A stretch of 64,000 bases of DNA, taken from NCBI GenBank assembly GCA_003635265.1, contig PYIZ01000050.1:124001-188000 (forward strand). The letters are read 5' to 3'. Positions 38,839 to 48,779 of this stretch are shown piece by piece. Positions within the stretch are counted from its first letter, which is position 1; each line of letters begins with the position of its first letter. The notes beneath the pieces were generated by a model that was not told the origin of the DNA, ran no database searches, and worked only from the letters and a program-made list of their open reading frames with translations. This DNA is from Candidatus Poribacteria bacterium (lineage in GTDB: Bacteria; Poribacteria; WGA-4E; PCPOR2b). Made by a program: the position numbers and the translations under genes.

Positions 38839-39231
38839 GTGGAGTGTAATAATGTCCGGAAAGAATTAGTCGCCTACATTGATGGTGAACTTTCTTCAAC
38901 GGAAATCAATACAATCGAGGCGCATCTTGCAGATTGTAAGGAATGCGCCGCCGAACACAATAAACTGACAACAACAATCGAATCAACACGTAAGGTAGGG
39001 AACATTCAGCCCGCACAGGATTGGTGGGAAACGTTGCAGGAACGTCTGTATGCACCTGATACTGATCTTGTGTCCGCAGTTGCCGATTCAAATGTTAAAA
39101 CACCACCGGCTGTTACCGAGGATTGTCAACCCGACACCCAAGCACAAACACCCGATGCCTCAAAGGTGCTGTGTAAAAAGCGATGTTTTGATCGTGCACA
39201 AACTACCAACGTCCGACTCGCTAAACGGTGA
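38839..39231 (+). CDS. Anti-sigma-factor-type zinc-finger (zf-HC2) protein
   Basis: Protein of 130 aa with the HxxxCxxC anti-sigma signature: HLADCKECAAEH (residues ~30-41) after ECNNVRKELVAYIDGELS. Such domains hold an ECF sigma factor inactive. The GTG start has AAAGGAGG eight bases upstream. Unlike classical anti-sigma factors it shows no membrane helix, and no ECF gene is adjacent; the nearest sigma domain is in the fusion protein at 46 kb. The residues after ~75 are low-complexity and the end is Cys/Arg/Lys-rich, so the C-terminal part may be a truncated or frameshifted remnant. Confidence 0.7.
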   Translation: MECNNVRKELVAYIDGELSSTEINTIEAHLADCKECAAEHNKLTTTIESTRKVGNIQPAQDWWETLQERLYAPDTDLVSAVADSNVKTPPAVTEDCQPDTQAQTPDASKVLCKKRCFDRAQTTNVRLAKR

Positions 39232-45861: not shown

Positions 45862-46049
45862 GGGTTCCTCCTCGCTGCGTCTTTTCGTTTTCAGTTTAGC
45901 ACTAAGTCCAATCGGGATCAATATCAAAAAAACGGATCTGTCATCTGATGATTGGCTCCGAATGTGCGTCATTATAAATAGAAAAACACGGTTCAAGGCT
46001 TTAACGCAGTGACATCCTAAGTCTTGATAATTGTACCGGGAGATAGAGA

Positions 46050-48779
46050 ATGGCACTTCATGACGCTGAGTTGATTCAACGTACACTAGAGGGCGACGAA
46101 TCCGCATTCGGGTTTCTGGTGGACAAGTACAAAGGATCTGTCCACGCCTTGGCGTACCGCAAGCTGGGCAATTTCCACACCGCCGAAGAAATCACGCAGG
46201 ACACCTTCCTCAAGGCGTACCAGAAACTATCGACGCTCAAAGACCCGGGGCGTTTCCCCGGTTGGCTCTACGTGATTGCCGCACGATGCTGTATCTCTTG
46301 GTTTCGGCAAAACCGCGTGCAAACCGAATCACTTGACAGCGTTAAGAGAGAGATGGATACACAATCATGGACGAAATATACCGATGCACGCCTCCGTGAA
46401 GAGGTGCACAATGCGCTCGAAAGTCTACCCGAAAGTGAGCGAACCGTCCTAACGCTTTACTATATGGCGGGGATGACCAGCGAGGAGATTGGACGGTTCA
46501 TCGGTACATCATGCGGTGCCATCAGAGACCGACTCTATCGCGCCCGAATGCACTTAAAGGAGGAATTGACGATGATTGAAGAAACCTTGGGAGGCTTCCA
46601 ACTGCCACCAACTTTGACACAAGAGATTATGCGTCGAATCCCCAATGGTCCACTCAATGCTGCGCCAACAACAGGCAAACCACTTGTGCCGTGGATTGTT
46701 GCGACCTCGTTGGTTGTAGTTACGTTGCTTATCGGCTTGGGAATTAAACAGGCTACGACATTTCAGTTACCCTACAGCTTTGATGCCCCCGAATCCGCAA
46801 CGATGGTTGAAATTGTTGATGCCCCGATAATCAACATGCCACTATTGACGTTCTCGCCGGTTAGTCGGACAGGAGGGATCAGTGGAGGAGAATCGGGCAA
46901 TGGAAATCGGGAGAATGATTCGGTGCAGGGAACTGCTGCAGATTCACGGAACAGTATAGAATCAGATAAAGTTGACTGGACGCAAACTAGGGGACCTTAC
47001 GGTGGCACAATTATATCCCTTCACGCGACGCCGGAAGGAATACTCTTTGCCGGAACAAATGAAGGTGGTATCTTCCGTTCAACAGATGGAGGCGACACAT
47101 GGGTCTCCGCTAGCGAAGGCTTACGAGGCTCTTCGGACAACAGCTTCCCTAGCCTCCTCGTACTGACGCAGGAAGGAAATACCCTCTACGCCGGCACAAA
47201 CGGGGGCCTTTTCTATTCGATCAACGGCGGTGACTCGTGGCAGCAATTATCTCACTTTCAGGACGAGATAGTAGGCATTTCGGGGATTGCGTTCATTGGT
47301 GACACTATTTACATTGGGCGGCATATAGAGGAGAGTGTTTTCTTCTCTAACGATAATGGCAAGTCGTGGTCACAAATTGATAGTGGTTTGACCGGACGAG
47401 GGGGACCCAAGTTGTTTGCTATTGGAACAACGCTTTTCGCACAGATGTGGCATCATGTTTTCCGTCTCAAAGCCGGCGAGAACTCATGGACAAAACTCGC
47501 CATCGAAGATCTGTGGAAAAAAAACACCGCCGAGTCAGATATTACAAATCTTGTAATATCTGGTGAAGTAATTTACGCAGCAACAGCCGGTGGGGGACTT
47601 TTCCGCTCAACGAATATGGGTAATTGGTGGCAGTCAATCAGGCACGAAGCGATGTATGATTTCGATGGTGAATTGGCGGCGTTGGGAACCACGATCTTCT
47701 ATATCGGTGATGATCGGGTGTTTCATTCGACCGATGCCGGTAACTCATGGACGATGTACAACAGCAACTTGACCAATCAAGAAATTTTGTCCATGACAGT
47801 CTTATCTGAGAAGATACTTTACGTCGGTACATTGGACGGGGTGTTCCGCTCGACGGATGGTGGGGAATCGTGGACGAAAACCAACACCGGCATCATTAAT
47901 ACACATATTGAGGATCTTGTGTTCTTCAGAAACACACTCTACACTATAACGGATGATAGTGTCGTCGAATCAGCGGATGGTGGGAATTCATGGGTGCCGA
48001 TGAATGAAGGATTGGTTGCCAGCGATGGGGGACTGTTGGCAGTTTCGGGAGAAAAACTCTATATAGCAACAAACGAAACTAACTACGGGTTGAACCCATC
48101 AACTTCTGGAATTTATTTTTTGGCAGACGACGGAAACTCATGGATACCAATTCAGACGAACATGCAGTCTGCCAATAACAGAATCTATGTCGTCAATCAA
48201 TTGGCGATTAGTGGGGCAACATTCTACATCGTCGGACAGATGGGGGGCAAAGAGTGGCTCTACCGCTGGAGAGTGGGGGAAGATCTGTGGACACAACTCA
48301 TGCCGCAGCAGGATCTTTTTGGCTGGGGAGCGTTAGCTGTGTCAGGCAGAACGGTCTACATCAGTACGGTGCGTGGAAAACTGTTCCGCTCGTTTGACGA
48401 GGGCGATACATGGACAGAGGTGAGTCAAAAATTACCAAATTGGAACCAAGAAATCGGCACCTATGATTTGGCATTCATCGGTGAGACAATTTATGCAAAG
48501 GCTGGTAGTGGGGGAGGTCGCTCGACAGATGGTGGTGAGACATGGACGCCGCTCATCGTCGACGGATTGCCCGGTGGCTATATTGAGATGCAGCTAGTCG
48601 ATGGTACAACACTCTATGGTACAAGTTCTCATGGGGTCTTCCGCCTGACGCACGAATCCGATTCATGGGAGCAAATCGCCCCGACGCAGCGCGATGTCAC
48701 CTCCCTGGCGTTTGATGGCACAACGTTCTACATCGGCACACATGCGGAGGGTATATTTCGGCTTTCGCTGGATGAGTAA
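46050..48779 (+). CDS. ECF sigma factor fused via a membrane helix to a BNR-type beta-propeller
   Basis: A single frame of 909 aa. Residues ~1-175 are an ECF sigma factor: region 2 (SAFGFLVDKYKGSVHALAYR, then AEEITQDTFLKAY and FPGWLYVIAARCC) and region 4 with its HTH (LPESERTVLTLYYMAGMTSE, EIGRFIGTSCGAIRDRLYR). Residues ~176-210 form a linker, and ~212-233 one transmembrane helix (VPWIVATSLVVVTLLIGLG). The remaining ~670 residues carry at least ten BNR/sialidase-type repeats such as FRSTDGGDTWVS, predicted outside the membrane. The layout implies a membrane-tethered sigma factor with a built-in external sensor. ATG 46050 follows GGGAGATAGAGA. No anti-sigma gene is adjacent. Confidence 0.88.
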   Translation: MALHDAELIQRTLEGDESAFGFLVDKYKGSVHALAYRKLGNFHTAEEITQDTFLKAYQKLSTLKDPGRFPGWLYVIAARCCISWFRQNRVQTESLDSVKREMDTQSWTKYTDARLREEVHNALESLPESERTVLTLYYMAGMTSEEIGRFIGTSCGAIRDRLYRARMHLKEELTMIEETLGGFQLPPTLTQEIMRRIPNGPLNAAPTTGKPLVPWIVATSLVVVTLLIGLGIKQATTFQLPYSFDAPESATMVEIVDAPIINMPLLTFSPVSRTGGISGGESGNGNRENDSVQGTAADSRNSIESDKVDWTQTRGPYGGTIISLHATPEGILFAGTNEGGIFRSTDGGDTWVSASEGLRGSSDNSFPSLLVLTQEGNTLYAGTNGGLFYSINGGDSWQQLSHFQDEIVGISGIAFIGDTIYIGRHIEESVFFSNDNGKSWSQIDSGLTGRGGPKLFAIGTTLFAQMWHHVFRLKAGENSWTKLAIEDLWKKNTAESDITNLVISGEVIYAATAGGGLFRSTNMGNWWQSIRHEAMYDFDGELAALGTTIFYIGDDRVFHSTDAGNSWTMYNSNLTNQEILSMTVLSEKILYVGTLDGVFRSTDGGESWTKTNTGIINTHIEDLVFFRNTLYTITDDSVVESADGGNSWVPMNEGLVASDGGLLAVSGEKLYIATNETNYGLNPSTSGIYFLADDGNSWIPIQTNMQSANNRIYVVNQLAISGATFYIVGQMGGKEWLYRWRVGEDLWTQLMPQQDLFGWGALAVSGRTVYISTVRGKLFRSFDEGDTWTEVSQKLPNWNQEIGTYDLAFIGETIYAKAGSGGGRSTDGGETWTPLIVDGLPGGYIEMQLVDGTTLYGTSSHGVFRLTHESDSWEQIAPTQRDVTSLAFDGTTFYIGTHAEGIFRLSLDE

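Follow-up and report, generated by a model that had tools for sequence, protein, structure and literature searches.

A gene at positions 46050..48779 (+) of a 64,000-nucleotide stretch of a Candidatus Poribacteria genome (assembly GCA_003635265.1, contig PYIZ01000050.1; the whole stretch is called the window in the following) encodes a protein of 909 amino acids in which a sigma factor of the extracytoplasmic function (ECF) type, a membrane helix and a large beta-propeller follow each other. It belongs to a large family, about half of whose genes carry an ECF-type promoter, and in these promoters the −35 box varies with the residues that the gene's own sigma factor has in its recognition helix. 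These family promoters and the match of their −35 box to the gene's own recognition helix are what is new here. The protein probably constitutes a one-protein, self-activating ECF signalling system. The layout, the family, the promoters and the match between −35 box and recognition helix were computed. The features of the gene and its promoter are as follows:

45946..45953 (+): −35-like box TGATGATT of an ECF-type promoter; the same element and spacing occur upstream of relatives in related genomes
45964..45972 (+): −10-like box GTGCGTCAT of the ECF-type promoter, 10 bases after TGATGATT
46050..48779 (+): coding sequence, 909 amino acids, ECF sigma factor, linker, transmembrane helix, juxtamembrane stretch and propeller (reading frame, Pfam, orthologues, paralogue)
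46116..46316 (+): sigma region 2, residues 23-89 (Pfam PF04542; solved ECF relatives)
46395..46556 (+): sigma region 4, residues 116-169 (Pfam PF08281; aligned to sigma-E region 4, PDB 2h27)
46527..46538 (+): recognition-helix residues 160-163 (D160 ... Y163); columns 160 and 163 covary with the family −35 box (2h27 alignment)
46566..46682 (+): predicted cytoplasmic linker, residues 173-211, without cysteine or histidine; family consensus approximately MIREALxxFQIxPNLTENIMREI ... KPLVPW
46683..46745 (+): predicted single transmembrane helix, residues 212-232 (hydropathy, insertion energy)
46746..46835 (+): conserved, predicted extracytoplasmic juxtamembrane stretch, residues 233-262; family consensus approximately FQKPYSFDAxSExTVELVDAPIVL
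46836..46994 (+): variable linker, residues 263-315 (entropy measured over 263-300)
46995..48776 (+): propeller domain, residues 316-909, with nine Asp-box-like motifs, no cysteine and a GH74-like fold in the model

Domain layout and integrity of the reading frame

The gene consists of a single unbroken frame with an ATG start, ahead of which a sequence resembling a ribosome-binding site was seen by eye (GGGAGA, 46038-46043). Pfam identified Sigma70_r2 (PF04542) on residues 23-89 (E 7.8e-15) and Sigma70_r4_2 (PF08281) on residues 116-169 (E 3.4e-13), and Sortilin-Vps10, DUF6242 and BNR matches were found C-terminal to the helix. Sigma-2 and sigma-4 are present without sigma-3, as is typical of ECF (group 4) sigma factors; ECF relatives in the PDB match as well, and the ECF superfamily model TIGR02937 scores above its own cut-off. 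The fusion of an ECF sigma factor, one membrane helix and a large propeller, which had been proposed in a first-pass annotation of the sequence, is borne out by the frame, Pfam, hydropathy and orthologues. That annotation had also let about 670 residues of repeats follow the helix. A propeller is indeed present, but it comprises about 594 residues (316-909), its repeat motif is often degenerate, and the helix is followed not by repeats but by a conserved juxtamembrane stretch of 30 residues and a variable linker of 53 residues. The G+C content is 0.48-0.53 across five compared segments of the gene; at third codon positions it is 0.61 in the sigma part and 0.42-0.53 downstream of it.

The genome from which the window was taken (G000) is a draft of 53 contigs, 88% complete. 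The nearest named matches to the protein are four loci in metagenome assemblies of Candidatus Poribacteria, a group with members that dwell in sponges. An orthologue in genome G004 shows 78% identity over residues 1-908 and runs through the junction of sigma part and propeller in one frame, and so does a paralogue of 994 amino acids with the same domain order on contig C17 of the window's own genome. Because both span the junction in one frame, a frame error can be excluded. In G002, the orthologue breaks near residue 325 into two frames that overlap, and G009 has a relative with an internal stop. The idea that a frame or assembly error joined two genes was rejected, and of the two findings that would have spoken against the fusion, a frame error and the lack of a transmembrane helix, neither was made: the junction is conserved and the helix is predicted.

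A large family with a conserved cassette and changing outer domains

In a search with the whole protein, 58 of 58 genomes (its own included) gave matches, ordinary ECF sigma factors being counted in. The best E-value was 3.2e-89 or lower in 53 of them, the exceptions being G001, G007, G011, G014 and G016. The same architecture, looked for in related genomes, was thus found in orthologues, a paralogue and a large family. Its extent is best seen in G049, a genome of one contig (6.7 Mb) with 97 ECF-like matches. Among these, 74 are family members, 56 of which match to residue 240 or further (E up to 2e-62) and 18 over a shorter range (E 6e-56 to 1e-40), while 23 are ordinary ECFs with E-values from 7e-25. 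Several of the G049 family genes stand in tandem runs, in which lipoprotein or secreted genes are interspersed, as judged by their starts in the stretches that were read. In a viral collection, the single query gave no match, and an alignment query gave one, with 33% identity over residues 2-176.

The 138 family frames used for the following comparison were obtained from 171 matches by removing 7 without the start motif and 26 duplicates. Conservation across the cassette (96 rows) is highest in sigma-2 and sigma-4, with a mean entropy of 0.91 and 0.95, and the juxtamembrane stretch has a mean entropy of 1.26 compared to 2.19 in the stretch that follows. The outer domains, classified by motif in frames some of which are cut by locus ends, comprise 71 BNR, 23 WD40-like, 19 other and 7 short ones; in 18 frames the helix was undetected. 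A conserved cassette in front of a changing outer part indicates that the unit from the sigma factor to the juxtamembrane stretch is kept and that what follows is exchanged.

The tandem runs also hold remnants without a sigma domain which keep a linker-like stretch, a helix and more, and a copy that has its sigma part in one frame and its helix part in another (L058:10650-11951, L067:2032-4008, L077:3488-5812). Together, the remnants and the split copy suggest birth and death of family copies.

Membrane helix and topology

With a Kyte-Doolittle threshold of 1.4, residues 212-230 are the only stretch called as a helix (mean 2.41). On an insertion-energy scale, the best 19-mer of the helix sums to −0.24, and the next best elsewhere in the protein to 5.77. 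A helix-like segment was found in 115 of the 118 members with the strongest cassette match. Within the family, cysteines number 0.75 per 100 residues ahead of the helix and 0.19 behind it; in the window protein all three (80, 81 and 155) lie within the sigma part, and none is found in the 594 residues of the propeller. Lysine and arginine together average 2.39 in the 15 residues before the helix vs. 1.60 after it (117 members). This cysteine depletion and the lysine/arginine bias fit a cytoplasmic sigma factor with an outer propeller, and we infer from them that the propeller would lie outside and the sigma domain in the cytoplasm. A membrane-tethered one-protein sigma system, as the first-pass annotation had imagined it, gains support from the recurrent layout, the helices, the conserved juxtamembrane stretch, the cysteine-poor outer part and the promoter test described below.

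ECF-type promoters upstream of the family genes

The gene in the window is preceded by a sequence of the ECF promoter type: TGATGATT, 10 bases and GTGCGTCAT at 45946-45972 form the only site of a strict form on either strand of the window. In a first survey, an ECF-type site was detected in 33 of 58 non-redundant upstream regions (shuffled mean 0.2), and 5 of 221 other genes carried one, three of these being family copies themselves (L052, L071, L098). A larger set of 125 family genes, from which genes with fewer than 400 bases upstream and loci picked by promoter search were omitted, gave 63 genes with the promoter vs. 5 of 220 other genes; a recount was identical, and the shuffled control had a mean of 0.87 and a maximum of 3. 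The shared ECF-type −35/−10 motifs that the first-pass annotation had recommended looking for do therefore exist. Split by cassette match, 61 of 111 genes with a strong match and 2 of 14 with a weaker one have the promoter.

Of the control hits, L035 (lectin-like) and L065 (thioredoxin-like) code for proteins with a signal-like start, the former directly ahead of a family sigma gene and the latter located between family genes. L044 codes for a transposase directly before a family gene, L077 for a protein without Pfam match flanked by family genes, and the fifth is L160.

In G049, a pattern derived from family genes, partly from G049's own, gave 26 sites vs. 0 for the reversed pattern. None of them lies inside a frame of at least 150 amino acids, and 16 are located within 400 bases before family sigma genes. 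Among the other ten, an ordinary ECF gene follows 374 bases downstream of L119, and three sites belong to proteins with a signal-like start: L127 (a WD40 protein), L132 and L138 (DUF5916). By eye, L118 was assigned to a STAS-like protein and L131 to an ABC ATPase; L128 precedes a short frame, and no gene lies near L117. The remaining two, L130 and L133 (G049:C1:3924134 and 4934846), are family-type sites 385 and 135 bases before genes that appear transposase-like by eye, and are perhaps carried by or used by mobile elements.

The −35 box and the recognition helix

The −35 classes TG[AT]RAY and TGCAAC/TGCACC of 63 labelled genes were compared with 265 alignment columns. Most information is shared with column 163 (0.83) and column 144 (0.82), followed by columns 160 and 82 (0.61 each). 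Columns 160 and 163 align with a Ser and a Phe of the sigma-E recognition helix (PDB 2h27), S172 and F175, which we take to contact the −35 element. Column 144, almost as strong as 163, corresponds to S144 of the window protein and lies outside the recognition helix.

In the labelled set, the boxes TGAGAC and TGAGAT go with N160/Y163 (13/13), TGTGAC with T160/Y163 (8/9), TGAAAC with S160/H163 (4/5), TGCAAC with S or Q163 (24/26, the other two having H) and TGCACC with R163 (9/10, one having H). In a comparison of 111 genes with labelled sites, TGCACC occurred in each of the 13 that have R163 and in one of the 98 that lack it. Rules for the −35 box were written before 60 held-out genes were fetched, of which 59 were readable (no start was found in L176). 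A strict site was present in 37 of these, 46 fell under a rule, and 32 had both and could be scored, leaving 27 that were not scorable. The pre-stated rules were correct in 31 of the 32, and in 26 of 27 among those less than 90% identical to the training genes, whereas shuffled boxes gave a mean of 12.4 and a maximum of 21 correct (2000 shuffles). The sole miss was TGCAAT where TGCAAC had been predicted. Unforeseen classes also appeared: L or I160 with H163 goes with TGTAAC (5/5 of those having a site), and NATHRE with TGTAAG (three genes, by eye). When the sigma-4 columns are left out of the tree building, six changes of class and six of residue are counted for TGCACC, and in the pairs examined the residue and the −35 class never change in opposite directions.

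The −35 box of a gene thus corresponds to the recognition-helix residues of its own sigma factor. Since the rules were right in 31 of 32 held-out genes, self-activation is well supported, and we infer it for each family sigma factor as what would be the simplest reading of these sequences; recognition of a promoter by a close sibling sigma factor having the same box is possible. The −35 specificity of ECF sigma factors resides in region 4.2, and the promoter code applies what is known of ECF sigma factors (autoregulation, −35 specificity) to a set of paralogues of unusual size.

Observations that weigh against self-activation and a built-in clamp

Several results count against the interpretation given above. 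A strict promoter match was missing at 62 of the 125 family genes. The exact promoter sequence of the window matches once in its own genome, at its own site only, and a further 16 sites differ from it at two positions (4 such sites for the reversed control), each of them within a frame of at least 100 amino acids; only L109 is also close (25 bases) ahead of another start. No second target of the window sigma factor was found, because the other sites are all located inside such frames. The promoter was not found upstream of the close G004 orthologue (L056). In that upstream region, a stretch resembling a dispersed repeat (by eye) occupies the promoter's place.

The −35 code has its own weak points. 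The mean information of sigma-4 is not above that of other regions, so that only single columns stand out, and columns 144 and 82 covary with the −35 class without an explanation. Among the held-out genes, 22 had no strict site: the upstream sequence was too short in two, 18 had a close variant as seen by eye, and neither a site nor a close variant was seen in L189 and L217. The box of three YDR[IM]RRQ genes reads TGTACG by eye, although R163 predicts TGCACC; having no strict site, these genes were left unscored. In the window's own group, D/N160 with Y163 pairs with TGATGA, TGATCA, TGACCA, GGAACA, GGATCA and TAATCA, and given these differing boxes the code in the form described above applies to the f3 genomes. 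Finally, the residue is unchanged in some tree pairs, and a sign test is not significant because only one to three independent pairs are supported.

The linker between sigma-4 and the helix (residues 173-211), in which the first-pass annotation had suspected a built-in clamp, has 39 residues, no cysteine or histidine and no Pfam zinc finger. It carries a conserved motif and, according to low-confidence models, a predicted helix (187-195/196); by eye, the motif resembles the stretch before the helix of some stand-alone anti-sigma factors. In a search of the linker profile against 1518 other frames, the best of ten anti-sigma-like proteins (L019) reached only rank 23. Next among the ten with a match at the right place came L075 (rank 48); four of the remaining eight matched elsewhere, and four gave no match. 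Couplings between linker and sigma factor, computed from 177 sequences (effective number 59), do not favour sigma-2 either, the top 60 pairs comprising 21 with sigma-2, 20 with sigma-4 and 19 with the stretch between the two. In the full-length model the predicted local distance difference test (pLDDT) score is 21-46 in blocks over residues 1-300, and a second model of the sigma cassette has a mean pLDDT of 41; no contacts within the cassette were read from them because of this low confidence. The built-in clamp is a guess which finds no support in profile search, structure models or couplings.

In class I anti-sigma factors, helix 1 contacts sigma-4 and helix 4 contacts sigma-2, as stated in the passages compared (PMC7406223). 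Such a domain consists of a three-helix bundle and a fourth helix on sigma-2, and the 39 residues of the window linker were judged too short for four helices. The linker was also considered as the fourth helix of an anti-sigma domain, for which the profile search gave no significant match. As no anti-sigma domain is recognisable, the off state would come about either through the linker helix clamping the sigma domain or through tethering alone.

The propeller

Nine Asp-box-like motifs were found between residues 344 and 832. In the full-length model, built from six sequences, block pLDDT over the propeller (316-909) is mostly 70-88, with some blocks at 51-68, and below 50 over most of residues 1-307. 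Sorted by E-value, a fold search gave Bacteroides sensor domains first, with a TM-score of 0.25-0.26 over the whole model. Among the 50 matches listed, GH74 xyloglucanases had the top TM-scores, mostly 0.48-0.54 by query with a root-mean-square deviation of 5.0-7.2; lower values of 0.29-0.41 were obtained for 1sqj_A, 3a0f and 6p2m, and values by target reached 0.66. Judged by this TM-score match, with the blades uncounted, the modelled propeller would agree with the tandem seven-bladed GH74 fold. A sequence search also matches GH74 chains.

The Asp of the TDIGG motif in the first blade of GH74 enzymes is catalytic. In a local alignment with 6p2m, a stretch with an insignificant E-value of 22 when taken alone, ARTDIGGAYR of the enzyme stands opposite AGTNEGGIFR of the window protein, so that Asp is replaced by Asn. 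The orthologue L050 has Gly at the aligned position, and a regular expression found no motif of the TDIGG form in residues 281-450 of 69 of the 71 BNR members. On these grounds, which are weak, catalysis by the propeller appears unlikely, and it more likely binds than cuts.

Proposed mechanism and alternative explanations

The sigma domain would reside in the cytoplasm, anchored to the inner membrane by one helix. The outer beta-propeller domain, probably two tandem propellers, would bind a ligand, and our guess for the ligand class is a glycan or glycoprotein. The bound ligand would free the sigma domain or render it usable; for the release we likewise guess proteolysis, most likely a cut near the juxtamembrane stretch and then intramembrane proteolysis at the helix, and the part given to the linker is a guess as well. 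The sigma domain would then guide RNA polymerase to a promoter with a matching −35 box, the first target being the promoter of its own gene, which would create positive feedback. A few further targets per member may exist, several of them secreted or envelope genes. By duplication, many copies would have arisen whose outer domains and −35 recognition diverged. One site-2-protease homologue is encoded in the window's genome; its presence is not discriminating because the protease family has matches in all 14 control genomes. The published relatives argue for cleavage, since IutY is freed by cutting and truncated SCO4117 goes along with activation of its own gene.

It is possible, if rather unlikely, that the sigma factor works while tethered, the ligand altering shape or clustering so that the membrane-bound sigma factor recruits RNA polymerase and no cleavage occurs. 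ToxR and CadC also act from the membrane. The tethered state would suit the 39-residue linker ahead of the helix, in which no anti-sigma domain can be recognised, and the conservation of helix and juxtamembrane stretch alongside the sigma domain suits mechanical coupling as well as cleavage. Against it, the fused ECFs that have been studied are cut (IutY) or proposed to be cut (SCO4117), according to the passages compared (PMC8999054). Control by a separate anti-sigma factor is improbable. The first-pass annotation had named as a possible partner a zinc-finger gene at 38.8 kb (38839-39231), and a zf-HC2 domain is indeed present in it (E 9.6e-10). Elsewhere in the window's genome, ordinary ECF genes have zinc-finger proteins with a helix as neighbours (L019, L020). 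The protein encoded at 38.8 kb, however, has 130 amino acids and no predicted membrane helix, and its gene is 7 kb from the sigma gene, to which nothing links it. No frame of at least 60 amino acids with the motif HxxxCxxC was found in the orthologous loci L050 and L052, a search that covered neither other classes nor anti-sigma factors genome-wide, and the close neighbours of the sigma-propeller gene that were scanned in the window are enzymes or redoxins.

That the sigma half is a relic, the protein now being only a surface propeller or adhesin, is hardly to be expected. Such an outcome would resemble L058 10650-11951, where a linker-like stretch, a helix and WD40 repeats are kept without a sigma domain, and the split of the G002 protein between two frames would fit too, but no other part of the cassette is as well conserved as sigma-2 and sigma-4, and the recognition helix varies in step with the promoter. 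The draft state of a single genome is all that speaks for a frame or assembly error, which is practically out of the question given that the junction is repeated in another genome, the paralogue and the wider family. A self-activating, one-protein system thus stays the explanation we favour.

The zf-HC2 protein of 38839-39231 stands alone in the window, with no evident sigma partner.

Comparison with known systems

The following comparisons refer to selected passages of the cited papers. For SCO4117 of Streptomyces coelicolor (ECF52), positive autoregulation and activation by excision have been proposed; its truncation goes with activated expression of its own gene (PMC5826349, PMC8999054). 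Like the window protein, ECF52 members combine an ECF sigma domain, a transmembrane helix and an outer domain, which is carbohydrate-binding in ECF52. They differ by a zinc finger before the helix, whereas the window linker has no zinc finger, cysteine or histidine, and by a proline-rich stretch with a carbohydrate-binding module in the place of the propeller. ECF52 is described as exclusive to Actinobacteria, with one member in S. coelicolor (PMC5826349, PMC8999054), in contrast to dozens of copies possible per genome in the window family.

The WD40 or other repeat extensions of ECF57 and of planctomycete ECF-WD40 proteins are described as protein-interaction extensions (PMC8999054, PMC8567305). 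There too, an ECF sigma domain is followed by WD40-like repeats and many young paralogues exist, and 23 of the 138 family frames are WD40-like. The window protein itself has Asp-box and not WD40-like repeats, and a helix between sigma factor and WD40 repeats is not mentioned in the passages compared (PMC8999054, PMC8567305). In ECF57 and ECF-WD40 proteins, a conserved pair of cysteines could link sigma-2 and sigma-4; the window protein has cysteines 80, 81 and 155, of which C81 is invariant and C155 is not (11 aligned members).

The extension of IutY (ECF243, Pseudomonas putida) is a FecR-like anti-sigma part, and no FecR-like family was found in the window protein by Pfam at an E-value of 0.1 or better. 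Both proteins join a sigma factor and a membrane part, and IutY is freed by Prc and RseP (PMC8999054).

The Bacteroides propeller sensors BT4663 and BT4673, the lead fold matches by E-value, likewise use outer beta-propellers as sensors. According to their titles they belong to one- or two-component systems, whereas the window protein would signal directly via its sigma factor, and their TM-scores are below those of most GH74 entries listed. No histidine kinase or receiver was found in the window protein by Pfam, as would be expected of a propeller two-component sensor. GH74 xyloglucanases share the propeller fold and sequence matches and differ, in a weak alignment, by the residue at the place of the Asp.

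A 2014 paper on Poribacteria mentions WD40 repeats, and its main text as compared contains no word beginning with "sigma" (PMC3909097). In the titles and abstract openings searched, no account of a sigma-helix-propeller family in Poribacteria was found; the 2021 ECF reclassification may hold one, so that the family as a group is not with certainty new.

Further sigma factor fusions in the genome of the window

An ECF sigma domain fused in frame to a nearly complete SAICAR synthetase (PurC) was noticed at L011:3529-5091 (G000:C6:51028-52590). The PurC part begins where sibling proteins carry the membrane helix, and the fusion is the sole PurC match in this genome, which is 88% complete; G002 and G004 each have a single PurC, in frames of 312 and 299 amino acids. 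It may be a real fusion or an assembly join. Other sigma fusions contain ankyrin repeats (760 amino acids), an M16-like peptidase domain and a helix (890 amino acids), thioredoxin-TPR-PD40 (789 amino acids), weak TPR matches below the cut-off (667 and 663 amino acids) and, by eye, leucine-rich repeats (500 amino acids); the fusion loci are L010, L011, L012, L013 and L016. Sigma domains seem unusually fusion-prone in this genome.

Implications for the biology of the family

The membrane-anchored, sensor-fused ECFs in the compared literature carry an anti-sigma part, and the cassette of the window has no recognisable one, which raises the question of how a sigma factor is silenced without an anti-sigma domain. 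With dozens of paralogous sigma factors, it is also a question how cross-talk is avoided. In G049, the 74 cassette copies outnumber the HisKA kinases (8 matches there and 10 in the genome of the window, with one match in either genome falling below the curated cut-off; HisKA family only). GH74 content has been reported for Poribacteria, according to the passages compared (PMC6081418), and as family propellers resemble GH74, part of this count may be sigma sensors and not enzymes.

Outer domains have been exchanged, and promoter recognition diverges together with each promoter. It is conceivable, though we regard it as doubtful, that dozens of insulated, self-inducing sigma switches form a repertoire which handles much of the contact with the outside. 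Each switch would then combine an outer propeller, a −35 recognition and a promoter of its own, and would mainly produce more of itself. The family would form a natural set of orthogonal sigma-promoter pairs, ready-made for synthetic biology. Positive feedback with few other targets would lead to a memory-like on/off display of one surface receptor, and the repertoire would be a sigma-based counterpart of receptor repertoires that recognise host or prey glycans.

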